Positions 3,883 to 18,112 of a DNA stretch of 35,941 bases are shown here, one piece after another; positions within the stretch are counted from its first letter, which is position 1, and the number at the start of each line of letters is the position of its first letter. The notes below the pieces were generated by a model. The model searched no databases. It saw nothing but the letters and a program-made list of their open reading frames with translations, and was not told the DNA's origin. Source of the DNA: Ferrithrix thermotolerans DSM 19514 (GTDB lineage Bacteria > Actinomycetota > Acidimicrobiia > Acidimicrobiales > Ilumatobacteraceae); NCBI GenBank assembly GCA_945861325.1, contig CAMATY010000006.1, positions 1 through 35,941 on the forward strand, given 5' to 3'. Position numbers and translations under genes: made by a program.

Positions 3883-5016
3883 CTATTTTTTTGAAGTGAT
3901 GTAACGGCGTGGGACGCGAGAACTTATGCCGCAGACAATCTCATAACCAATTGTCTCAAGACTTGTTGCAATCTGATTGGCAGTAATTGTTTGACTAACT
4001 TGTGTGCCAAGCAAGACTGCATGATCACCAATCTTGATCGGCATTTCACCACAATTAACCATCAGTTGGTCCATTGTTACGACACCAACGATTGGGCAAC
4101 GCTTGCCATTTATTAATACATCTCCGCCGACAGACCAAAGTCGTCGGGGTATGCCATCGGCATACCCAATCGGCAATGTGGCAATTGTTGCTGGACGATC
4201 AAGTTTGTAACGCAGGCCATATGAAATACCTTCACCAGCACCAAGACGTTGCAGATGTGCAACACGGGCGTGAACCGACATCACTGGTTTCAATTTTGTG
4301 GAAATTGATTCAAGTTCAATACTTGGAGCGATGCCATAAATTGCAATTCCGACTCGCACAATATCTGTGGTCAAATCTAAGTTGCGCAACGACGCCGACG
4401 AATTAGCGGTGTGAACATATTTTGGCCGTAGTGAGTTTTGTTCAAGCAACTTCACGATTTCGCGAAACTTCGTGAGTTGCAAATCTGTCTGGCTATGTTC
4501 AGGCAAATCAGCCGCCGCAAAATGTGTATAAACACCTTCGAGTTTCAATGATTGCAGTTTGCTGACCTGTTTGGCACGCGCCAACGCATCTTCAATTGGT
4601 GCACCAACCCGATGCATTCCAGTGTCAACTTTCAGATGCACTTTACCAATCACTCCGAGTCGTTCAGCAGTTGCCCCATAACTGGAGATATTTGCTTCGT
4701 TATATACGGTTGCACAAACATCGTCTAGCAACATTTGTTCGTGTTGGGCTTGTGGTTGCTCGCTAACAATAAGTATCGGTGCGGTAATTTTTGCGCGGCG
4801 CAACTCGTGCGCCTCATCGGCGAGCGCCACACATAATCCACGAGCCCCAGAATCCAAGGCTGTTCGCGCAACTTCAACTGCGCCGTGTCCGTATCCATTT
4901 GCTTTAACAGTTGCCCAAAGTTCTGCTTGACCCGCTTGCGCGACAAGAGTTTCGACGTTGTTGGCTAGTGCACTTAGGTCAATCTCGGCCCAAGCCCAAC
5001 GATTAGTTGTACTCAT
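3883..5016 (-). CDS. alr: alanine racemase (PLP-dependent)
   Basis: Interconverts L- and D-alanine for peptidoglycan. The protein has 377 residues, normal for the family. Seen: the PLP lysine in TVKANGYGHG (Lys38), the substrate-binding arginine in MHRVG (Arg136), HTANSSA, the IYG-containing strand before residue 230, and the second catalytic base in GISYGLRY (Tyr266). The C-terminal beta domain includes TLPIGYADG and VTMDQLMVN. The order acpS-alr-tsaE is common in Actinobacteria. It begins 18 bp downstream of acpS. Confidence 0.97.
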   Translation of the reverse strand: MSTTNRWAWAEIDLSALANNVETLVAQAGQAELWATVKANGYGHGAVEVARTALDSGARGLCVALADEAHELRRAKITAPILIVSEQPQAQHEQMLLDDVCATVYNEANISSYGATAERLGVIGKVHLKVDTGMHRVGAPIEDALARAKQVSKLQSLKLEGVYTHFAAADLPEHSQTDLQLTKFREIVKLLEQNSLRPKYVHTANSSASLRNLDLTTDIVRVGIAIYGIAPSIELESISTKLKPVMSVHARVAHLQRLGAGEGISYGLRYKLDRPATIATLPIGYADGIPRRLWSVGGDVLINGKRCPIVGVVTMDQLMVNCGEMPIKIGDHAVLLGTQVSQTITANQIATSLETIGYEIVCGISSRVPRRYITSKK

Positions 5017-5414: not shown

Positions 5415-8400
5415 CTAGCGCGAACGCCAGTGGTCGGCCATCTCGCTGATCGGCAAAATCAACAAGTCAGCAACAGGAACTTCGGCAAGCCGGTCTTCGC
5501 GAAATGAACCTTCGGTTTCTGTTACCCAGTCAACTAGACGGTCGTAACGACGGTCGTATCCTTGCAACACCGCTCGCATTGCAGTTGCCGCAAGATGATC
5601 GTGAAACATCACATGCAACAAGGTGATACCAGTTGTCTCTCCACCTTTAGTTTCAGGAACCATAATCACGGTGCGGTTATCGCTGCGACCGCGAGCAACT
5701 AGCACCTCTTGATCACTGGCTACTCTTCGCTTTGTGCCAACTAGTGCAGAGTTGCGATCAACTCGTGACGAAAGATTTTTTGACATTCCACCACGATCAA
5801 CAATTGTGATCGTGCCAGAGTTGCTGGCGATATCTCCTTCAATGCGATATCGCGTGAACCCAGTCACCGAACTCACCGCAGCGTCTAGATCAGCGACTAT
5901 TTTTAACACGCGATATGAAAGTCGTTCGCGAGCAACACCAGCCTCAAGCAACGCCTTGACCAACGGTCGATCGAACAAACCTTCGTCGCTGCGCGAAATA
6001 CCGACAGTGACAGTTTTGGCTTGATGCTTAATTGCGTCAACTGGACGAGTTAATTCGTCGACACCGCGAGTTAGCGCACTTGTTAGATCATCTAACAATA
6101 ATTCTGGCGAAGCGATCTTGCCAGAAGTTTGCTGATAAGACTGCACAGGATCACTTGAAAGTGTGTCGCGCAACATCGTCACGATGCGCACTGCAGTGCT
6201 GGCTTCAAGATTGCCGTCGTAATTGCCCGTTGCCAACGCATCGGTGAACCTTGTGGCTGGCACAGGTAACAAGGCACGAATCTTGGTCAGCAATACATTT
6301 GCATCCCCGCCTCGTTCAACTGCATGTTCAATAACTTCGCGCGCTTCACGCAATGGACGGGCAAGTGCATCAATCGCCAGTGCAGCCTCATAGCCAAATA
6401 AATGTCCCACCATCACACTCAAAATGAAAGCAAGACTCGACTCAACATTTGGTACTAGGAGCACGGCCGCTGCTGCATCAAATCGATGCTGACCAGCCGA
6501 AGCGACAACGATCGGCAACGCTTTATGCGCTCGATAAATTGCGATTTCTTTGGCCACATCAGATGCGGTGCCCTCAAGCAGGCCAGTTGCGCAAACAAAA
6601 ATCAACGGCTCACATGACAGGTCAATATGTTTTTTGTCTTCAGTTGTGTCACTCGAAATTGATTTGTAGCAAAGTTCAGACAATTTAATGCGAACCTCTT
6701 GTGCCGCAATCGTGTTCATCCCATTACCAACAACTGTCCAATAACGACGAGCCGATGCAAACTGCTTTGCTGCTGTCGCAATTGCTGGTCGTGTTGCAAG
6801 CACTTCAACTAACGCATCTGGAATCGTGCGTAAGCCGGCAAGCAACTCATGTCGAGCTTTATCGGTTGACTTACCAGCCGCACTTGACAACGCACATGCA
6901 TACAACGCACCAGCCGCAACCTGTGCATAGAACGCTTTTGTACTGGCAACACTCATCTCAACATCGCGACCATCTGATGTATACATCACGCCGTCGGCCT
7001 TCATCGAGAGTTCAGTGCCACGACGATTGACGATCGCTAAAACACTTGCACCGCGAGCGCGAGCAAGATCTACTGTGCGATTTGTATCTGTTGTCGTGCC
7101 ACTTTGACTGATTGCAACAATCAAAGTGTCGCTCATGTCAAGCGTTAATTCAAAACCAGAAAGTTCGCTGGCGGGCAACGCATCAATGTTGAGGTGGATA
7201 TCAACAAGTTGCTTGAGAAGTCTTGCCAGCGCTTGCCCAGCAATAGCAGCCGTGCCTTGCCCGATTACGCGAACTTTAGTAATCGCACCAGACGCAAGTC
7301 GATCGCGCACCGTTTTCGGAAGAACTGCTTCACCAAGTTCGGCAACCAGTAAGCCATTTTTCTCGACGATTCGACCGCGCAGAGTTTTGTGAAAGCTCTG
7401 CGGTGCTTCTTCGATTTCTTTTGATAAAAAGTGCTTGTGTTCACCACGATTGATATCGCGAGTTGTAATTTCTGCTGTCAAAATATCGCTCTCGCTCAGC
7501 GCAATTTGGCTGCCGTCATAAGACTGCAAAACAATTCCGCTTAGTTCACCAGCATCAGCGACACAAAGTGTTACGACTTGCCCGCGACTTGAAGGATTAT
7601 CTGGGTCGGCAAGTGCTTCGCCGTCCATCCGCACATACTTGAGCGTCTCTTCGACAACTCCGTATGGTTCGCTGGCTACGACATAGCGATCTTCGGCAAG
7701 ACCGATGCTCAGTCCTTGACCACTGCCGTGCAATGCAAGTAGAAGTTTTTCTGGTTCGTTGGCACTGGCTACCGCAATTGCAACTGATCCTTCGAATTTT
7801 GCGACAGTTTCACGAAATGCATCAGTCAAAGAACTAGTAGTTGCCAAACGCCGTGAGACCAAAGCCGGAATAACTTTTGCATCGGTAGTAATTGGCCCGG
7901 CAACTCGCAAACTATTTTGAGCCCGAAGATCTGCGTGATTGTCGACATCGCCATTAAGTGCAGCAACCAAATATGCATCATTGTGTTTGCGCTCAAGTTC
8001 TTCGCTATTTACTGGATGAGCATTTGGCTCCGAGATGATCCCGACGCTTGCCCACCTTGTGTGCGCTAAAACTGCAACCTGCGAATTTGGTTGCGAAATA
8101 CACAGGCGCAACAAATTATCTGTCTGCACTGCGTTACGCATCACTCGAGTGTTGTCACCCAGTTCACCAATTTCGGCCGCTGCTTTATAGACAAAAGACC
8201 AGGCATTTTCGGTGAGACGCACTGCACCCGACATAAACAACGCGTCATCACTGCGATTGGCAAGTAAAGACTTCACATTTTTATCTGTGCTCTTTAAGCC
8301 GTGACCCCAAACCAAAACATGCACGCCTGCCGAATCACGCCCACGCACCTCAAGACGATCTAGTCCCGAGAACGCTTGCTGGATAGAAAAATAACCACTG

Positions 8401-8822
8401 CGTGCCGATTTTGAAGCACCCTGTCCCGCCAATGCATCTACAAGTCGAGCCGTTCGAATTCGATCATTGCGCAACTCCCACAACGCATCTTTCGCGTTGA
8501 TGATCTGTTTCAAAACCAATTCTGCTGATGGATTTTGTACTTGCTCTGAACTTTCTACAGTCGCTTCAAAACTAGTGACAAACGCATCTAGTTGATCTAA
8601 TCGCGAAGTCATCTCAGCAACGAGTTGATGATTATCGGCCAAGCAGAACTGTCCAGCGTCTCCGCGTAAAAGCAGATCGGCATTTGCTACCAGACTTCCA
8701 ACCTCAGCAATTTTGTTTTGAGTGCTGTCACTAATTGCGCGGTCTAGAAGTTCAAGGACTTCTTTTGAGGTTGGCGTCGCGCGTCGGGTTGGTCGACTTA
8801 GCACGCAGATAATTCCGCACAT
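5415..8822 (-). CDS. glmS: enlarged glutamine-fructose-6-phosphate aminotransferase (GlmS-type, 1135 aa)
   Basis: Makes glucosamine-6-phosphate from fructose-6-phosphate and glutamine, first step to UDP-GlcNAc. The start is set at 8822 because this exposes the required N-terminal nucleophile (Met-Cys2-Gly-Ile-Ile); an upstream in-frame ATG would bury it. Glutaminase part: Cys2, RGRDSAGVHV (about 160-169), AHTRWAS (253-259) and the Asn290-Gly291 pair. Isomerase SIS domains: KHFLSKEIEEAP (463-474), SQSGTTTDTN (572-581), VASTKAF (625-631), then Lys713, Glu716 and His732 lining up with E. coli K485, E488 and H504, and AKTVTV (935-940) matching the C-terminal lysine 603 motif. E. coli GlmS has 609 residues; here there is an insertion of about 120 residues after strand 1, further insertions, and about 195 extra residues after the normal C-terminus. 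Catalytic residues are intact, so it is probably active. Confidence 0.88.
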   Translation of the reverse strand: MCGIICVLSRPTRRATPTSKEVLELLDRAISDSTQNKIAEVGSLVANADLLLRGDAGQFCLADNHQLVAEMTSRLDQLDAFVTSFEATVESSEQVQNPSAELVLKQIINAKDALWELRNDRIRTARLVDALAGQGASKSARSGYFSIQQAFSGLDRLEVRGRDSAGVHVLVWGHGLKSTDKNVKSLLANRSDDALFMSGAVRLTENAWSFVYKAAAEIGELGDNTRVMRNAVQTDNLLRLCISQPNSQVAVLAHTRWASVGIISEPNAHPVNSEELERKHNDAYLVAALNGDVDNHADLRAQNSLRVAGPITTDAKVIPALVSRRLATTSSLTDAFRETVAKFEGSVAIAVASANEPEKLLLALHGSGQGLSIGLAEDRYVVASEPYGVVEETLKYVRMDGEALADPDNPSSRGQVVTLCVADAGELSGIVLQSYDGSQIALSESDILTAEITTRDINRGEHKHFLSKEIEEAPQSFHKTLRGRIVEKNGLLVAELGEAVLPKTVRDRLASGAITKVRVIGQGTAAIAGQALARLLKQLVDIHLNIDALPASELSGFELTLDMSDTLIVAISQSGTTTDTNRTVDLARARGASVLAIVNRRGTELSMKADGVMYTSDGRDVEMSVASTKAFYAQVAAGALYACALSSAAGKSTDKARHELLAGLRTIPDALVEVLATRPAIATAAKQFASARRYWTVVGNGMNTIAAQEVRIKLSELCYKSISSDTTEDKKHIDLSCEPLIFVCATGLLEGTASDVAKEIAIYRAHKALPIVVASAGQHRFDAAAAVLLVPNVESSLAFILSVMVGHLFGYEAALAIDALARPLREAREVIEHAVERGGDANVLLTKIRALLPVPATRFTDALATGNYDGNLEASTAVRIVTMLRDTLSSDPVQSYQQTSGKIASPELLLDDLTSALTRGVDELTRPVDAIKHQAKTVTVGISRSDEGLFDRPLVKALLEAGVARERLSYRVLKIVADLDAAVSSVTGFTRYRIEGDIASNSGTITIVDRGGMSKNLSSRVDRNSALVGTKRRVASDQEVLVARGRSDNRTVIMVPETKGGETTGITLLHVMFHDHLAATAMRAVLQGYDRRYDRLVDWVTETEGSFREDRLAEVPVADLLILPISEMADHWRSR

Positions 8823-8894
8823 GGTTTCTAGTCTACTTTCGCAATTAACCCAGTCGTGCTGCGATCGCATCGGCCAGCGCAGTCGCAACAGACT
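8789..8894. repeat. left copy of the 106-bp glmM/glmS junction direct repeat
   Basis: Identical to 11978-12083 except for one base (8823 G against 12012 A), in the same orientation, 3189 bp apart. The copy contains the first 11 codons of the intact glmS, the 22-bp spacer, and the last 17 bp-triplets (including the stop) of glmM. Outside it the two loci are unrelated: to the left is the rest of real glmS, to the right is island DNA. It marks the left edge of the island. Confidence 0.95.
8845..8894 (-). pseudogene. glmM 3'-end fragment (last 16 or so codons plus stop)
   Basis: In the glmM frame this stretch reads [15 protein letters not shown] followed by TAA, identical to the C-terminus of the intact glmM at 12034. 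It has no upstream coding sequence, being cut at 8895. It is a by-product of the junction duplication and shows that glmM once ended 22 bp before glmS. Confidence 0.93.
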
Positions 8895-8935
8895 CCTATT
8901 GATTTCTCATTCGAACCAATAACGGATTCAAGGCC

Positions 8936-8963
8936 TTAATACAAAATACTCCGACTTTTACAA
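8936..8963 (-). promoter_or_regulatory. weak candidate promoter for glmS
   Basis: Read on the minus strand, a TTGTAA element (8958-8963) is separated by 16 bp from TATTAA (8936-8941), about 115 bp before the glmS start. It lies in island DNA just outside the left repeat. It is proposed mainly because the island separates glmS from glmM, so glmS now needs a promoter here. The match to consensus is modest (4 of 6 in each box). Confidence 0.22.
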
Positions 8964-9022
8964 CCAAGGTTGCCTGATACGTTATGTTATAGCGCGATAG
9001 TAAACTATGGCGCCAAAATTTT

Positions 9023-10084
9023 ATGTCTGAAGATAAAGTGTTGAAGGCAATCTCGAGAATTACAGATAGGGACGACTGGCGCAAGTCTTTTATCGCTCAG
9101 ATTGTGGCTTTTGAGCGCGCGATTGAATCAGACGGCGTAGATGTGCGTGAGGAAATCTCTGGGCCTCTCGTGGACTCACTCTACGACGATGACAAGGTCG
9201 TTCGAAAAATACTCTCAAATGGAGTGACCTTTGAATTCTTTTATCGATCAAAGATCGCGCGCGACTTCGTTATGTCCACACCTGAGCATCCCGATCACGC
9301 ATGGGAGCCCCAGACCAGCAGAATCCTCGTGAGGCTAGCGAAGTCTGCTCAGCAAGTCGTAATCGGTGGCGCTTATTTTGGAGACCATGCAATTTTGATC
9401 GCGAGGGAAATTCAAGTGGCGGGCGGAGTAGTTCATGCATTTGAGCCCAACAACGATCAACGAAGTATGTTGATTCGTAACGCCAAATTGAATAATCTAA
9501 CCAACATCGTTGCACGACCGGAGGGCCTCTGGTACAACAGCACAACGAACCTTAAACTCGTGGGCTATGACAGTTTCGCGACTACTGAATCCGTTGACGA
9601 GGGTCCAGATTCATTTAAGACCGTTACAATAACTGAGTATCTGAAGTCCAATGACGTTGAAACTGTGGATTTGATTGTTTTGGATATTGAAGGGTCCGAG
9701 ATTGACGCTCTACGGGGGGCGGAAAAATTTCTAGGCCAGCCGAAAGGTATTGCTCCAAATATCCTCTTCGAAGTGCATCGCCACTATGTCGACTGGACGA
9801 ACGGCTTAGCTGAAACTCCGATCGCTCAATTGCTTCTCAACTACGATCATACGCTCTATGCCTTACGAGATTCCAACTCCAATTACGACCTCGTCGGCAG
9901 GCCGATTGAGTTGATTCCCATTGAGTCGATCTTTCTTGAGGGCCCTCCACACGGTTTTAATATGGTTGCTGTGAAGGACCCGAAGATATTTGAGGATCAA
10001 GCCTACAAAATCGTTAGTAATGTCAGCCCAAAATATCTTCGCCACAAAGACCCTGCGCTACATCACCCCGTCGGCGGCCTATAG
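9023..10084 (+). CDS. FkbM family SAM-dependent methyltransferase
   Basis: Probably O-methylates a sugar or other component of a surface glycan; the substrate is not evident. The protein has 353 residues. Seen: a 110-residue N-terminal part without recognised motifs, then the SAM-binding motif VVIGGAYFGDH (about 112-122), FEPN (140-143) ending the second strand, and VDLIVLDIEGSEIDALRGAE (about 215-234), the most typical FkbM block. It is the only plus-strand gene in the window, divergent from glmS and convergent with the acetyltransferase. An ATG at 9007 opens a 7-codon frame only, so 9023 is taken; no clear Shine-Dalgarno precedes it. The 3' end abuts the glmM fragment, with 11 bp between stops. 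Confidence 0.9.
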   Translation: MSEDKVLKAISRITDRDDWRKSFIAQIVAFERAIESDGVDVREEISGPLVDSLYDDDKVVRKILSNGVTFEFFYRSKIARDFVMSTPEHPDHAWEPQTSRILVRLAKSAQQVVIGGAYFGDHAILIAREIQVAGGVVHAFEPNNDQRSMLIRNAKLNNLTNIVARPEGLWYNSTTNLKLVGYDSFATTESVDEGPDSFKTVTITEYLKSNDVETVDLIVLDIEGSEIDALRGAEKFLGQPKGIAPNILFEVHRHYVDWTNGLAETPIAQLLLNYDHTLYALRDSNSNYDLVGRPIELIPIESIFLEGPPHGFNMVAVKDPKIFEDQAYKIVSNVSPKYLRHKDPALHHPVGGL

Positions 10085-10095
10085 GCAAGCAGAGG

Positions 10096-10321
10096 TCACC
10101 GTTGTCGTGCTGCGATCGCATCAGCAAGCGCAGTTGCAACAGATTTTGCAGTTTCATATTGAGCCACTTCGACCATTACGCGAACCATTGGTTCGGTGCC
10201 ACTAGATCGCACAAGGACTCGGCCATTACCTGCCAAGGTCTCCTGCGCCTCCAAAATTTAGGTTGCAAAAATTTCTTGAATATTTTCAGTGCTCTTGGCG
10301 ATACGAACATTTAATAGCATC
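10096..10321 (-). pseudogene. decayed glmM 3' fragment inside the island (about 75 codons)
   Basis: Aligns without gaps to the end of intact glmM (12042-12259, constant offset 1938); by hand count about 35 of 216 bases differ, about 84% identity. In frame it reads MLLNVRIAKSTENIQEIFAT, then a TAA at 10258-10260 where glmM has GAG, then [20 protein letters not shown] and a C-terminus in IAARQR plus TGA. The substrate phosphate-binding SSGTEP loop is still recognisable. The most diverged feature is the very end. It has no start and cannot make phosphoglucosamine mutase. Its divergence says it came from a relative or is older than the flanking repeats. Confidence 0.92.
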
Positions 10322-10349
10322 GAAGAACCGCGTAATTTGAATATTGGTG

Positions 10350-10979
10350 TCAGCTCCGAAAATATTCTGATAGTAAATCGGTGGGCGTGTCCCGAAAAGA
10401 GAGTCCTCCACTAGTGCCCGTAGAAGCCAGCCGATGGCTTGGAACATTAGCGTCCAGTACACTAGTGCCCTGGCTGACCACCGCGCCGTCGCCGATGTCG
10501 CAGCGACCAATAATGGCTGAATTCGGATAGACCACAACTCCGTCGCCAATTAATGGACTTCGGTCCTTGTGGCGTCCGATTGTTACGTTTTGGTAAATCA
10601 CTAGACGGTTGCCGTAGGTGGCCTTGGCTAAAACGATTCCCACGGTGTGGCCAATGTAGAAAATCGGTGGCATAGCGATTTCGTAGAACAGATCAATTCC
10701 GTTAAATGCCTTGTTCACCAGAAATAAGCGGGTCGCAGCATCCGCGTTTCCAGACGTCTTAAAAATAGAATTCGATAGAAAATAAAGAAAGATGGAATGT
10801 TGAGATGATTGCATCACGTTGAACTGATCGGCTCTCCAAGGGGCGCAGGCATTTATGCAGAAGTGCATACGAGCCAGTGCATCATCAATGTGAGCATTGA
10901 CTGCTGACCGGAGTGCAGACTCGCGCCCATCAGGGACTACGTGGTTGCACTGGGCAGTTACGTATTCGATAAGACTCAT
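10350..10979 (-). CDS. hexapeptide-repeat O-acetyltransferase, serine acetyltransferase (CysE)-like
   Basis: Left-handed beta-helix acyltransferase, probably acetylating a sugar, given its neighbours. The protein has 209 residues. Seen: an alpha-helical N-terminal half of about 100 residues, then the CysE-like run FYIGHTVGIVLAKATYGN, with the expected catalytic His at 111, IYQNVTIGRH, and hexapeptide turns IGDGVVVYPNSAIIGRCDIGDGAVV up to residue 168. A true cysteine-pathway CysE is less likely because the gene is in an island with fkbM and an epimerase and has no cysK neighbour. It lies 20 bp downstream of the epimerase gene, probably co-transcribed. Its 3' end stops 28 bp from the glmM fragment. 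Confidence 0.85.
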   Translation of the reverse strand: MSLIEYVTAQCNHVVPDGRESALRSAVNAHIDDALARMHFCINACAPWRADQFNVMQSSQHSIFLYFLSNSIFKTSGNADAATRLFLVNKAFNGIDLFYEIAMPPIFYIGHTVGIVLAKATYGNRLVIYQNVTIGRHKDRSPLIGDGVVVYPNSAIIGRCDIGDGAVVSQGTSVLDANVPSHRLASTGTSGGLSFRDTPTDLLSEYFRS

Positions 10980-10999
10980 GCGGGTATGGCCTACCAGTT

Positions 11000-11797
11000 T
11001 TAAAATTTAAGCCCCCTCAAAAAGTCGCGAATAACATCTTCGACGGACTTCGCCGTGACCCCTAAGTCTAATAGTCGCTCAACAGAAACATTAGGTGGGG
11101 GTTGCATCTCGGCTACACCCGTGAACGAGACAAACCAGCCTTCTGACTTAAAAATTTCGGCAATTTCTGCGTTTGAGATCAGCTGCCCGCACGCCACATT
11201 ATAAATGCCGGAACCACTTGCGATTGCTATCAGTGATGCGACAGCATCATCTAAATGAATATAATCACGTTGGGTACTGGGGCTGGAATCCAGAATTATT
11301 TCACGACTTAAAGTTGCCTTGTTCAGCAACTCCGACAAAAACTCGGGAGAACCACCGTGTCCGTTAAATACCTTGGAAAGTCTAGCAACCACGCCTCGCC
11401 CTTCCGATCGGGCGAGCGTAAGATTTTCACCCAGTGCCTTCGATAGATCGAAGACCTTTCGAGGGTCGGCTGAATTAAAGACTAACGGCGTCGATTCGTC
11501 AACATCTATTTGTGAAAGACCATCATAAAGTCGCGTGGAGGAGCAATATATTAGCCACTCAAAATTACCCGCACTGATTATCTCACTGACAAGGCAGGCG
11601 CGAGCATCAACAGTATCAAAAGGTCGCTGATCGTAATCTGCGGTAGTACCAGCACAGTACCAGAGAACCCCGAGATCGCGCTCCAATAATTCGGGATCAC
11701 CCTTAGTAGGAGTCCAGGGCAACTCACCCTCGGCAGTGAGGTACTGAGCCAACCTACCGCCGATGAACCCCTGCGCGCCGACAACGGTGACGCTCAT
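11000..11797 (-). CDS. NAD-dependent epimerase/dehydratase-like protein with altered catalytic Tyr
   Basis: Extended short-chain dehydrogenase fold of the nucleotide-sugar epimerase type, 265 residues. Seen: the Rossmann motif VVGAQGFIGG (Gly7, Gly10, Gly13), a YCSST strand end (84-88) typical of SDR epimerases, and FDLSKALGEN (116-125), which occupies the place of the usual YxxxK. Lys120 is there but the catalytic Tyr is Phe116 (codon TTC). It also has QRDYIHLDDAV, the usual RDYIHVDD motif. A good GGAG lies 9 bp before the ATG. It is the first gene of a two-gene minus-strand unit with the acetyltransferase. Fold assignment is firm; activity is doubtful. Confidence 0.85.
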   Translation of the reverse strand: MSVTVVGAQGFIGGRLAQYLTAEGELPWTPTKGDPELLERDLGVLWYCAGTTADYDQRPFDTVDARACLVSEIISAGNFEWLIYCSSTRLYDGLSQIDVDESTPLVFNSADPRKVFDLSKALGENLTLARSEGRGVVARLSKVFNGHGGSPEFLSELLNKATLSREIILDSSPSTQRDYIHLDDAVASLIAIASGSGIYNVACGQLISNAEIAEIFKSEGWFVSFTGVAEMQPPPNVSVERLLDLGVTAKSVEDVIRDFLRGLKF

Positions 11798-11969
11798 ATC
11801 AAGCGTTCTCCGATTAGTCTGGCCCTGACGTATTCTAAGATGACATTGACTTTCAAATCGTCACGCACTGTGATCCCATTGATGATCACTACACTTTTTC
11901 GAATTATGGAATCGCACATTACGAACAAACTTGATCTGAGGTGATATCATCGTTTAACATAATAGTCGT

Positions 11970-12011
11970 CTAGTTTCTTGGTCGACTTAGCACGCAGATA
12001 ATTCCGCACAT
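11970..12011 (-). pseudogene. glmS 5'-end fragment (11 native codons, then stop)
   Basis: On the minus strand the ATG at 12011 begins MCGIICVLSRP, identical to real GlmS, then runs into island sequence (Arg-Asn) and a TAG at 11970. The reading frame is 13 residues long. It sits 22 bp after the glmM stop, where the intact glmS should be, and so confirms that the island split an ancestral glmM-glmS pair. It may still be translated as a small peptide, but no function is proposed. Confidence 0.9.
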
Positions 12012-12083
12012 AGTTTCTAGTCTACTTTCGCAATTAACCCAGTCGTGCTGCGATCGCATCGGCCAGCGCAGTCGCAACAGACT
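11978..12083. repeat. right copy of the 106-bp glmM/glmS junction direct repeat
   Basis: Mate of 8789-8894 with a single mismatch. Here the glmM side is continuous with the complete glmM, and the glmS side is broken at 11977. It defines the right edge of the island. Confidence 0.95.
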
Positions 12084-13380
12084 TTGCAATTTCGTGTTGT
12101 ACCGCTTCGACCATAACACGGACTACTGGTTCTGTGCCACTAGATCGCACGAGGACCCTGCCATTATCCGCCAAAATCTTCTGCGCCTGCAGAATCTCTG
12201 TTGCAAAAATCTGTTGAATATTTTCAGTGCTCTTGGCGATCCGAACATTTATTAACACCTGAGGAAAACTCGTCATCGCTTCGCCGGCAATCTCACTTAA
12301 TGTCTGTGAAGAACTAGCGACAAAAACAGCCAATCGAATCGCAGCCAGCAAACCGTCACCTGTGGTTGCTTGATCGTGATAGATAATGTGTCCGCTCTGC
12401 TCGCCACCCAACGCCAGATCATTTTCCTCAATTGCGGCTAAAACGGCTCTGTCACCAACTGGAGTTGTGATTACTTCGATCTCGGCTCGTTGCATTGCTT
12501 GATGAAATCCAATATTTGTCATCACGGTGACCACGACTTTATTGTTGCGCAGCGCGCCAGTGCTCTTCATCTCTCTGGCGCTAATCGCTAATAAATGATC
12601 GCCGTCGACTATCAAACCATCGTTGTCTGTAGCAATCAGTCGGTCGCCATCGCCATCAAATGCGATACCTAAATCGGCTTTCAAATTCTTGACTGACTCA
12701 CTGAGCGAAAGCGGGTGCGTTGCGCCGCACTCGTCGTTAATATTTTTGCCGTTTGGCGTCGTGTGAATTGTTGAAACGGTTGCACCAAGCGCAACAAAAA
12801 CTTCCGGGGCGACGCTACTCATCGCGCCGTTGGCACAATCTAAAGCAATCTTAAGATTCGCAAGTGCATTTTTTGGTGCTGTTGCAATCAGGGTCGCACA
12901 ATATTGCGCTAAATATTTGGGATGAAAAGTTGCTTGACTTTGTGAAACTGACTGGCCAGAGTTCTGAGTTGACTGGCCAGAGTTCTGAGTTGCGATGGCA
13001 TTGATTAGTTCGATTTCGATTCGAGATTGTTCATCGTCAGAAAGTTTGCGCCCGCCGTTGCCAAAAATTTTCACACCATTATCTGTATATGTGTTATGTG
13101 AAGCAGTAATCGCAAAAGCCACTAAGTCACCTGTTGCTGCAGCATGCGCAATTGCCGGTGTCGGAGCAACGCCCATTAAGTGCACTTCAACACCACACTC
13201 AATTAGTGCTTGGGCGATTGCCTGTTCAAGCACGGGGCCAGACTCGCGTGTGTCTCGACCGATCACCACGAGTTTGCATTGCAGAACTTTGGCCGCAGCC
13301 CGAGCAAGTGCAGCAACATAAGTCGTAGTTAGTTCGGTGCCAAATTCGCCACGAACACCATCTGTTCCAAATTTCAACAT
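12034..13380 (-). CDS. glmM: phosphoglucosamine mutase
   Basis: Converts glucosamine-6-phosphate to glucosamine-1-phosphate for UDP-GlcNAc. The protein has 448 residues, as expected. Seen: N-terminal LKFGTDGVRGEFG, the phosphoserine loop AFAITASHNTYTDNG, the metal site AFDGDGDR, the sugar-binding GGEQSGH, and the C-terminal phosphate-binding RSSGTEPVVRVMVE. An AGG about 7 bp before the ATG can serve as ribosome binding site. A 14-residue Gln/Ser/Thr-rich stretch (TQNSGQS twice) sits between domains. It lies 80 bp after rpsI. Its natural downstream partner glmS is now 3.2 kb away because of the island. It is complete and should be active. Confidence 0.97.
   Translation of the reverse strand: MLKFGTDGVRGEFGTELTTTYVAALARAAAKVLQCKLVVIGRDTRESGPVLEQAIAQALIECGVEVHLMGVAPTPAIAHAAATGDLVAFAITASHNTYTDNGVKIFGNGGRKLSDDEQSRIEIELINAIATQNSGQSTQNSGQSVSQSQATFHPKYLAQYCATLIATAPKNALANLKIALDCANGAMSSVAPEVFVALGATVSTIHTTPNGKNINDECGATHPLSLSESVKNLKADLGIAFDGDGDRLIATDNDGLIVDGDHLLAISAREMKSTGALRNNKVVVTVMTNIGFHQAMQRAEIEVITTPVGDRAVLAAIEENDLALGGEQSGHIIYHDQATTGDGLLAAIRLAVFVASSSQTLSEIAGEAMTSFPQVLINVRIAKSTENIQQIFATEILQAQKILADNGRVLVRSSGTEPVVRVMVEAVQHEIAKSVATALADAIAARLG
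12951..12992. repeat. 21-bp tandem repeat within glmM (2 perfect copies)
   Basis: Two identical 21-bp units, 12951-12971 and 12972-12992, in frame. They encode the heptad TQNSGQS twice on the minus strand, in a polar linker of GlmM (about residues 136-149). The frame is kept, so copy number can vary without breaking the gene. Confidence 0.95.
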
Positions 13381-15749: not shown

Positions 15750-16682
15750 TCAGATGCGCAACGAGAGTCCTCGCTCATCAAGTTTCTGTTTGATCTCATC
15801 AAGACTCTTTTGACCGAAGTTCGTGATGTTCATAAGGTCTTCTTCTGAATGAGTAAGCAACTCACCAATTGTGTTGACCTGACCGCGCTTCAAGCAATTG
15901 CGTGGGCGCTCTGAAAGATCAAGATCTTCAATTGGCATGTCAAGATCGCCACTACCGCTCGAGTATCCGACAACTTCGCCAAGTTCAAGTCCAACTGGCG
16001 CATCAGTCAGATTGGCAACAAGCTCTACCAATGAACGCAAGGTTGCACCTGCCGAAGCAAGCGAATCAACTGGAGTGATCGAACCATCTGTCTCGATGTC
16101 AATAACAAGTTTGTCGTAATTAGTTGATTGCTCAACACGAGTTGGTTCAACTTCAAAAGTCACTCGACGAATTGGAGAAAAAATTGCATCAATCGGAATT
16201 ATGCCGATTGTTCTGCGAGAACTGTCACGATCAGACGACAAGTACCCTTTGCCCTGCTCAACTGTGAGGTCAAATACAAGTTTGCCTTTTGCCGAAAGAG
16301 TTGCAATTTTTTGCGACTTGTTAAGAATCTCAACATCTGGCGGACACTGAATGTCGCCCGCTGTAAGATCGGTTGGCCCTTTTACGTCGACATGAAGCAC
16401 GATTGGCTCATCTGATGTGGACACCAAAACGATGTCTTTCAAGTTGAGAATTATTTCGGTGACATCTTCGGAAACACCTTCAATAGTGTCGAATTCATGC
16501 AACGCAGATTCGAACTTTACTGATGTGATCGCCGCACCAGGAATTGAAGACAACAACATTCGGCGCAAAGAGTTGCCGATTGTATGACCAAGACCTGGTT
16601 CTAATGGACCAACCGAAAATTTTTGACGGTTGTTTTGTGCTGTGCCGATTGCTTCGACTGTCGGGCGCTGGATTACAAGCAT
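15750..16682 (-). CDS. rpoA: RNA polymerase alpha subunit
   Basis: Assembles RNA polymerase and contacts activators and UP elements. The protein has 310 residues, usual for Actinobacteria. The N-terminal domain includes LEPGLGHTIGNSLRRMLLSS, the dimer and beta-binding region, and IDAIFSPIRRVTFEVEPTRV. The C-terminal domain from about residue 245 contains RPRNCLKRGQVNTIGELL and NFGQKSLDEIKQKL, the DNA-binding helices. It follows rpsD by 30 bp as normal. Confidence 0.98.
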   Translation of the reverse strand: MLVIQRPTVEAIGTAQNNRQKFSVGPLEPGLGHTIGNSLRRMLLSSIPGAAITSVKFESALHEFDTIEGVSEDVTEIILNLKDIVLVSTSDEPIVLHVDVKGPTDLTAGDIQCPPDVEILNKSQKIATLSAKGKLVFDLTVEQGKGYLSSDRDSSRRTIGIIPIDAIFSPIRRVTFEVEPTRVEQSTNYDKLVIDIETDGSITPVDSLASAGATLRSLVELVANLTDAPVGLELGEVVGYSSGSGDLDMPIEDLDLSERPRNCLKRGQVNTIGELLTHSEEDLMNITNFGQKSLDEIKQKLDERGLSLRI

Positions 16683-17731: not shown

Positions 17732-18112
17732 TTACTTCCTCACTGCCATCTTCTTGTTAGCGACCGTCTTCTTTGGACCTTTTCGTGTGCGCGCATTTGT
17801 GTGAGTGCGCTGACCACGAACAGGTAATCCTTTGCGATGACGAGTGCCTTGGTATGAACCAATTTCGATTTTTCGCTTGATATCTGTTTGAACATTTCGA
17901 CGACGATCACCTTCGACGCTGAGGTTGTTCTCGATGAACATACGAATCTTGTTGACTTCAGAGTCGGTCAGATCTCTTACGCGAGTGTCTGGGCTGATGC
18001 CAGTTTCACTACAAAGTTTTTTTGCGGTTACTCGACCAATCCCGAAGATATAGGTCAGACCTATCTCGAGGCGCTTCTCGCGCGGAATGTCGACTCCTGA
18101 AATACGTGCCAT
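17732..18112 (-). CDS. rpsM: 30S ribosomal protein S13 (uS13)
   Basis: Head protein of the small subunit that contacts the large subunit and P-site tRNA, 126 residues. Seen: [21 protein letters not shown], the helix-hairpin-helix [13 protein letters not shown], and [20 protein letters not shown]. It lies 14 bp after rpmJ and 2 bp before rpsK. Confidence 0.98.

Follow-up and report, generated by a model that had tools for sequence, protein, structure and literature searches.

Two essential genes of a compact bacterial genome are separated in its relatives by a few tens of base pairs. How can 3 kb of foreign DNA enter between them and leave both whole? We examined this question at the glmM-glmS locus of a freshwater acIV-type actinobacterium. 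The window analyzed (35,941 nucleotides) is all of contig 6 of a 1.70-Mb genome assembly that consists of 159 contigs and is 79% complete. Here, an island of three genes lies between two copies of a 106-bp segment that contains the glmM-glmS junction. We consider it probable that foreign DNA was inserted with a long duplication of the recipient's own target, an event called "insertion with long target duplication". Candidate molecular routes are template switching, gap fill-in, and a circle.

Duplication of the glmM-glmS junction

Positions 8789–8894 (left copy) and 11978–12083 (right copy) form a direct repeat of 106 bp in which 105 positions are identical. The sole mismatch, G at 8823 and A at 12012, is the base directly before the glmS start codon. 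On the minus strand, each copy contains the first 34 bp of glmS (encoding MCGIICVLSRP), a 22-bp spacer, and the terminal 50 bp of glmM. An insert of 3083 bp separates the two copies. Despite the insert, glmM (12034–13380, minus strand, 448 aa), which ends inside the right copy, and glmS (5415–8822, minus strand, 1135 aa), which starts inside the left copy, are each intact open frames. A search of all 159 contigs gave only one third occurrence of the junction sequence, a 40-bp partial match inside the island. A 106-bp repeat within 36 kb is not attributable to chance. The duplication with the island between its copies is a confirmed, real observation.

The empty site and the origin of the two copies

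A single glmM-glmS junction without the island, with a spacing of 25–33 bp, was found in 25 of the 28 congeners; the other three (G009, G015, and G016) have no usable junction and are uninformative. Among the 113 family genomes with glmM and glmS on one contig and strand in the matches listed, the median glmM-glmS gap was 49 bp vs 3214 bp here. A first-pass annotation of the window had claimed that the junction was duplicated with DNA put between the copies and that neither gene was broken. The first claim is borne out by the 105/106 repeat and the single junctions of the congeners, and the second by the two open frames. That annotation had also named relatives carrying two junction copies without the island as a possible counterexample; none was found among the 25 informative congeners.

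Both copies carry shared bases in the spacer and at the glmM end that differ from those of the aligned relatives G020, G024, and G008. The left-copy base at 8823 is present in all five aligned relatives, and therefore the derived base is that at 12012 in the right copy, whose glmS start is unused. Identity to G020 was 93–100% across 20 intervals of 300 bp around the site and 94–98% in the nearest four. G020 was closer than G008 in all 20 intervals, and G024 was closer than G008 in 16 of the 17 with data. The lineage-own bases in both copies and the normal identity of the flanks indicate that neither the junction nor a long flank came from a diverged donor. As judged from these alignments, it is the recipient's own target that was duplicated.

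We rejected glmM/glmS as a family-wide hot spot. Gaps above 200 bp occur in 12 of the 113 family genomes, including this one, but the ends are not duplicated elsewhere: no duplicated glmM or glmS end was detected at the 12 other loci examined (11 with a gap above 200 bp and one with a gap of 113 bp). Several of these 12 loci have short local direct or inverted repeats.

Recurrence at other loci

The direct-repeat survey of this genome covered 811,677 bases, including overlaps and the window, so that less than half of the genome was sampled. It gave three further islands, which are flanked by duplications of 70, 62, and 48 bp at gene ends. Island (a), on contig 15, lies between the starts of rumA (our label for a TRAM-domain uracil-methyltransferase gene) and a neighbor that is presumably rpe; a repeat identical at 69 of 70 bp encloses a 1.84-kb insert with a Methyltransf_23 gene. 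Island (b), also on contig 15, lies at the 3′ end of ftsY, which encodes a signal recognition particle GTPase and whose neighbor is presumably ffh. Its copies are identical over 48 bp, and its 2.84-kb insert holds an unassigned 263-aa gene and an acyltransferase-3/SGNH gene (Pfam). Island (c), on contig 5 at the 3′ end of gatB, has a 62-bp duplication at 92% identity around an insert of approximately 1.1 kb with a GDSL-lipase gene.

Single-copy empty sites for all three islands are present in G020, with overlaps of 66 bp (rumA/rpe), 48 bp (ftsY), and 68 bp (gatB). Both copies and both flanks at ftsY are recipient-like; the ftsY overlap against G024 was 11 bp where the alignment stopped early and 47 bp in another comparison. 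The rumA/rpe insert is also present in G008, where the duplicated ends are 93% alike (98.6% in this genome). The gatB insert is also present in G024, with an exact 62-bp duplication, the same edges, and flanks like those of G020. Relatives yielded further candidates: a 30-bp repeat at the rpe 3′ end of G004, with a related gene at the same place in G020 and a 10-bp overlap; a 33-bp repeat at the rumA 3′ end of G026 (L267); and repeats in G020 (L231, 155 bp, 88%) and G004 (L220, 25 bp). A scan of the seven main inserted genes over the four islands of this genome (FkbM, Methyltransf_23, acyltransferase-3/SGNH, hexapeptide, epimerase, GDSL, and one without a Pfam family) detected no recombinase.

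The occurrence of the same anatomy at two other loci in other assemblies (G008 and G024) bears on whether the glmM-glmS duplication is an assembly artefact, such as a chimeric contig or a graph loop at the shared junction. The fragmented, incomplete assembly and the restriction of the duplicated junction to one assembly speak for an artefact. However, the copies differ by one base and have clean edges, and the inserted genes have open frames. We regard an artefact as very unlikely.

Repeat survey and overlap lengths

Repeats of at least 24 bp, at least 88% identity, and 0.25–12 kb apart were sought in approximately 2.3 Mb from ten genomes (812 kb of this genome, 388 kb of G004, 372 kb of G020, 210 kb of G008, 68 kb of G024, 74 kb of G026, and 100 kb each of G029, G033, G063, and G088). 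We found 22 direct and 0 inverted repeats. The direct repeats comprised ten in this genome, two each in G004 and G020, one each in G008, G026, and G033, five in G063, and none in G024, G029, and G088. Nine of the ten rows from this genome appear individually among the matches listed; the non-island rows were dropped (three in one repetitive gene, L169; the ftsY site seen again, L203; and the partial match between the junction and glmM′, the glmM piece inside the island). In G063, L281 looks by eye like a repeated palindrome and was set aside, as were four rows on L282.

The pairwise survey gave nine distinct insertions with overlaps of 106, 66, 48, 15, 10, and 2 bp and none in three; the gatB case was added to these separately. 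Only alignments of at least 250 bp were used, and the larger figure among G020, G024, and G008 was taken; some more distant or broken alignments yield smaller overlaps. The spread from no overlap to 106 bp is unlike the footprint of a transposase or an integrase.

An integrase-type element that used an attachment site at the glmM 3′ end, with the repeats as attL and attR and the integrase lost or supplied in trans, would fit direct repeats at the 3′ end of a gene left intact and the third glmM 3′ piece inside the island. However, none of the three genes inserted here encodes a recombinase, the repeats vary between sites in both length (106, 70, 62, and 48 bp) and sequence, and the repeat continues into the next gene, covering two gene starts at rumA/rpe. 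We disfavor an integrase island, for which there is neither an integrase among the island genes nor a constant attachment core, and give this explanation the least credence of those considered. A DNA transposon is disfavored because the duplications are long and variable between sites and no terminal inverted repeat of at least 12 bp was found at the island ends; the first-pass annotation had likewise held 106 bp to be far longer than the target duplications that most transposons make. We rejected Ku-type end joining of a staggered break: PF02735 was not found in any of the 29 genomes of the genus, most of which are incomplete (the control gave a match in 1 of 14 named genomes, Bacillus subtilis).

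A conspecific circle, consisting of the island and one junction copy, could have been released between the repeats and re-entered by a single crossover. Such a crossover yields exactly the observed structure. The inserts that this genome shares with G024 (gatB, same edges) and G008 (rumA/rpe), the patchy presence among relatives, and a ComEC-family gene in 26 of the 29 genomes of the genus all accord with a circle. On the other hand, an earlier event is needed to place the foreign genes beside this junction, and the circle must be conspecific because the junction copies are of this lineage. Moreover, there are other insertions whose overlap is at most 15 bp, below the 30-bp threshold for homologous crossover in E. 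coli that is cited in PMC2884548. We therefore think this route improbable as the origin of the island.

The first-pass annotation had proposed either a circular or linear fragment joined by homologous recombination or a junction duplication captured at insertion. The latter is the better half of that proposal, as both copies are lineage-own and the flanks are normal relative to G020. Only a conspecific circle can be kept of the former, which leaves the first joining of the foreign genes and the 0–106 bp spread unexplained. The assembly error that the annotation had allowed for is made less likely by the reproduced anatomy at two other loci, and glmM/glmS itself stands in one assembly. The annotation had overlooked both the recurrence at other loci and the glmM′ piece.

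A third glmM piece inside the island

The glmM′ piece (10104–10319, minus strand, 216 bp) is a decayed foreign glmM 3′ end with an in-frame stop inside. It is 90% identical to G008 and 84% identical to both the glmM of this genome and that of G020. In a tree of seven sequences, glmM′ has a long branch and groups with G008, with an ultrafast bootstrap of 94 on the separating branch. It is without the last two glmM codons and ends in QR-stop. The gatB insert in this genome and G024 also altered a last codon, from KRP-stop to KRT-stop. Foreign DNA lies on both sides of glmM′, which is not fused to the resident glmM. These features suggest that a G008-like relative once received an insertion whose gene-side edge was glmM′, and that this piece may then have moved along with the FkbM gene. 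A 13-nt exact inverted match connects 10095–10107, at the left edge of glmM′, with 11779–11791, at the start of the epimerase/reductase gene; it may mark a rearrangement or be due to chance.

The presence of glmM′ brings in homology-facilitated illegitimate recombination, or the transfer of the whole island with its flanks by homologous recombination from a conspecific strain. The 216-bp glmM′ is homologous to the target gene, this genome has donor-like sequence in the gatB right copy and the gene that follows it, and the process is described for transformable bacteria in PMC3240628, PMC2884548, and PMC5361080. However, a diverged donor should leave one donor-like copy and flank, whereas the copies and flanks at glmM/glmS and ftsY are all recipient-like. 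The foreign DNA that bounds glmM′ on both sides also counts against this explanation. We judge it to be as doubtful as the circle, if not slightly more so.

Proposed course of the insertion

In an insertion with long target duplication, the incoming DNA, perhaps taken up by transformation, would have been joined to the chromosome in an illegitimate, replication-linked event. The target could have been copied via a template switch out and back approximately 106 bp behind, or by fill-in of a gap staggered by approximately 106 nt. Where spacers are only a few tens of base pairs long, an insertion would survive if the copied stretch spans a gene end. Because such a stretch spares the genes, selection would favor long duplications. 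The simulated proportion of tolerated insertion positions, counted on mechanical open reading frames of the island-free window, was 5.4% without duplication, 10.8% at 48 bp, 13.4% at 70 bp, and 17.8% at 106 bp. Tolerance rises with duplication length, and a compact genome would therefore tend to show long duplications even if all lengths arise.

The copies may later permit clean loss of the insert, which could account for the patchy presence in relatives. They are perhaps kept alike by gene conversion, and therefore their identity is no clock. Part of the incoming DNA may stem from a previous insertion into the corresponding gene end of a G008-like relative, as glmM′ suggests, and the homology of this piece to glmM may have guided the insertion to the glmM end. 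The ComEC-family gene lends weak support to transformation, being present also in 10 of the 14 control genomes. We put forward tentatively, as possible rather than probable, a wider acIV route in which single glycan-decorating genes are captured recurrently, together with a target copy, where essential genes end, forming scattered, reversible surface-decoration cassettes without a recombinase of their own.

Several observations weigh against the proposed insertion. The duplicated glmM/glmS junction is known from one assembly only, and the near-identity of its copies may reflect gene conversion, not youth, as the figures for the rumA/rpe copies in this genome and G008 illustrate. The excess of direct repeats is not specific to the genus: G063, which belongs to another genus, has five direct and no inverted repeats in the 100 kb sampled, four of them on one stretch. 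It is therefore the empty sites that carry the argument for islands. Duplication is not obligatory, as it is slight or absent in several insertions. Inspection by eye of the repeat sites compared showed no shared edge motif, the exact-match test of the island's four edges gave only the 13-nt match at the glmM′ edge, and neither an intermediate nor a donor molecule was found. G021 matches part of the gatB insert, and only one junction copy was detected there. The gatB right copy (87–90%) and the next gene (75–84%) of this genome have diverged from the three relatives compared, which implies that such loci also undergo homologous exchange.

The gene after the right copy at gatB (L194 15336–16400, contig 5) is 75–84% identical to its relatives, vs 91–96% to G020 and G024 on the gatB side. 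The right side in G024 is 97% like G020. The divergence to the right of gatB in this genome has the appearance of a homologous replacement tract.

Relation to known systems

Insertion with long target duplication was reportedly described in Helicobacter pylori by Nobusato et al. 2000 (Gene 259:99–108).

In Helicobacter, such insertion is frequently associated with restriction-modification genes (PMC1643837) and shows "long and variable target duplications" (PMC3031569); it is also treated in PMC2869330. As there, a gene insertion was found here by comparison of close relatives and is flanked by long direct copies of the target. Unlike in Helicobacter, the cargo here mostly belongs to methyl-, acyl-, and sugar-modifying families, the host is a compact freshwater actinobacterium, the insertions lie at gene ends, and they recur in several relatives. 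None of the seven main inserted genes is a restriction-modification gene, an association that is frequent and perhaps not defining.

Homology-facilitated illegitimate recombination combines a homologous anchor with an illegitimate join and, as outlined in PMC2884548, PMC5361080, and PMC3240628, would not on its own give two recipient-type copies. It resembles the present case in that a homologous piece aids capture and displaced gene ends are left behind (PMC5361080), of which glmM′ may be one. The segments described in E. coli, S. aureus, and S. pyogenes are likewise short and strain-variable, some with direct repeats that permit deletion; flanking repeats occur in 10–18% of those segments, and 66–94% of these repeats are shorter than 30 bp (PMC2884548). 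By contrast, one sampled genome here has four sites with repeats of 48–106 bp. Transposed genes of Arabidopsis also have direct repeats of the host target, for which circle and target-duplication models are discussed (PMC2869330). They differ in being eukaryotic and often tied to tandem gene families.

No long target duplication in these bacteria or with glycan genes was reported among the titles and abstract openings listed. Within that literature, the kind of insertion is already known, and what appears new is its probable glycan cargo in a compact freshwater actinobacterium. The same sources tie such insertion to Helicobacter restriction genes as a suggested mobility mechanism, without a worked-out molecular route. 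The several cases within this compact genome, together with the empty sites, the shared inserts, and the decayed earlier piece, provide a natural series for working out the mechanism. They also suggest a way for a genome whose spacers measure only a few tens of bases to accept foreign genes, namely by target copying that spares the neighbors. If the cassette reading is true, the copies preserve the essential genes intact and allow every insert to be removed cleanly. Cassettes that come and go via the copies would provide simple surface variation, and in lake bacteria this variation could bear on resistance to phages and grazers.

Gene content of the island

From left to right, the island contains an AT-rich leader (8895–9022, 37.5% GC); an FkbM-family methyltransferase gene (9023–10084, plus strand, 353 aa; PF05050, E 6e-13, and TIGR01444); glmM′; a hexapeptide acetyltransferase gene (10350–10979, minus strand, 209 aa), which is serine-acetyltransferase/EpsC-like although it scores below the cut-offs of those models; an NAD-dependent epimerase/reductase (SDR) gene (11000–11797, minus strand, 265 aa); and a second AT-rich leader (11798–11977, 39% GC) upstream of the SDR-acetyltransferase pair. 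The three genes are probable sugar- or glycan-decorating genes, and the SDR probably acts on a nucleotide sugar.

Apart from the glmM piece, the island DNA gave no match in the 28 congeners. The three proteins gave only distant matches, of at most 38% identity, in 200 family genomes. Homologues of the SDR (48% identity) and the acetyltransferase (53%) are adjacent and identically ordered on a Cupriavidus campinensis replicon. A Desulfolutivibrio plasmid carries an SDR homologue beside rfbF, rfbG, a sugar epimerase, a methyltransferase, and an acyltransferase. These neighborhoods would fit a surface-glycan role for the island genes. A phage vehicle was rejected: viral contigs gave one weak, partial relative of FkbM (23% identity) and none of the SDR or the acetyltransferase, and phage records searched with the FkbM protein, the sole protein tried there, gave no match.

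The FkbM gene and glmS diverge from the 128-bp AT-rich leader. This leader may be a divergent promoter region, and the island may bring a promoter for glmS. A sigma-70 consensus scan gave no site in the leader, and promoter and terminator scans of the island yielded site numbers similar to or below those of shuffled sequence.

Other repeats, strain-variable segments and the GlmS-type protein

The G033 repeat (L273) measures 35 bp (4764–4798 and 6116–6150), resembles a tRNA 3′ end by eye, and flanks approximately 1.3 kb. It looks like an ordinary tRNA-site integration and was set aside. On contig 9 of G020 (L237), a 120-bp repeat of 99% identity (15862–15981 and 17847–17966) surrounds a 497-aa gene without a Pfam family, and a more diverged copy of the repeat lies at 2340–2671. 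Contig 8 of G020 (L236 16690–18660) has a gene that appears acyltransferase-like by eye between convergent gene ends, with a 15-bp overlap relative to this genome. A strain-variable insert of approximately 1.46 kb without target duplication is present on contig 15 of this genome (L168 5972–7431). Matching DNA occurs in G004 and G025 and, more weakly, in G015, G021, and G027, and the site is empty in G008, G026, and G028.

The GlmS-type protein, with SIS and GATase_6 domains, is about twice the usual length at 1135 aa. Approximately 240 residues lie between its start (MCGII) and the recognized amidotransferase domain (250–385), and it has a long C-terminal part. GlmS-type matches were obtained in 187 of 200 family genomes, and many of them align over residues 1 to approximately 1134.

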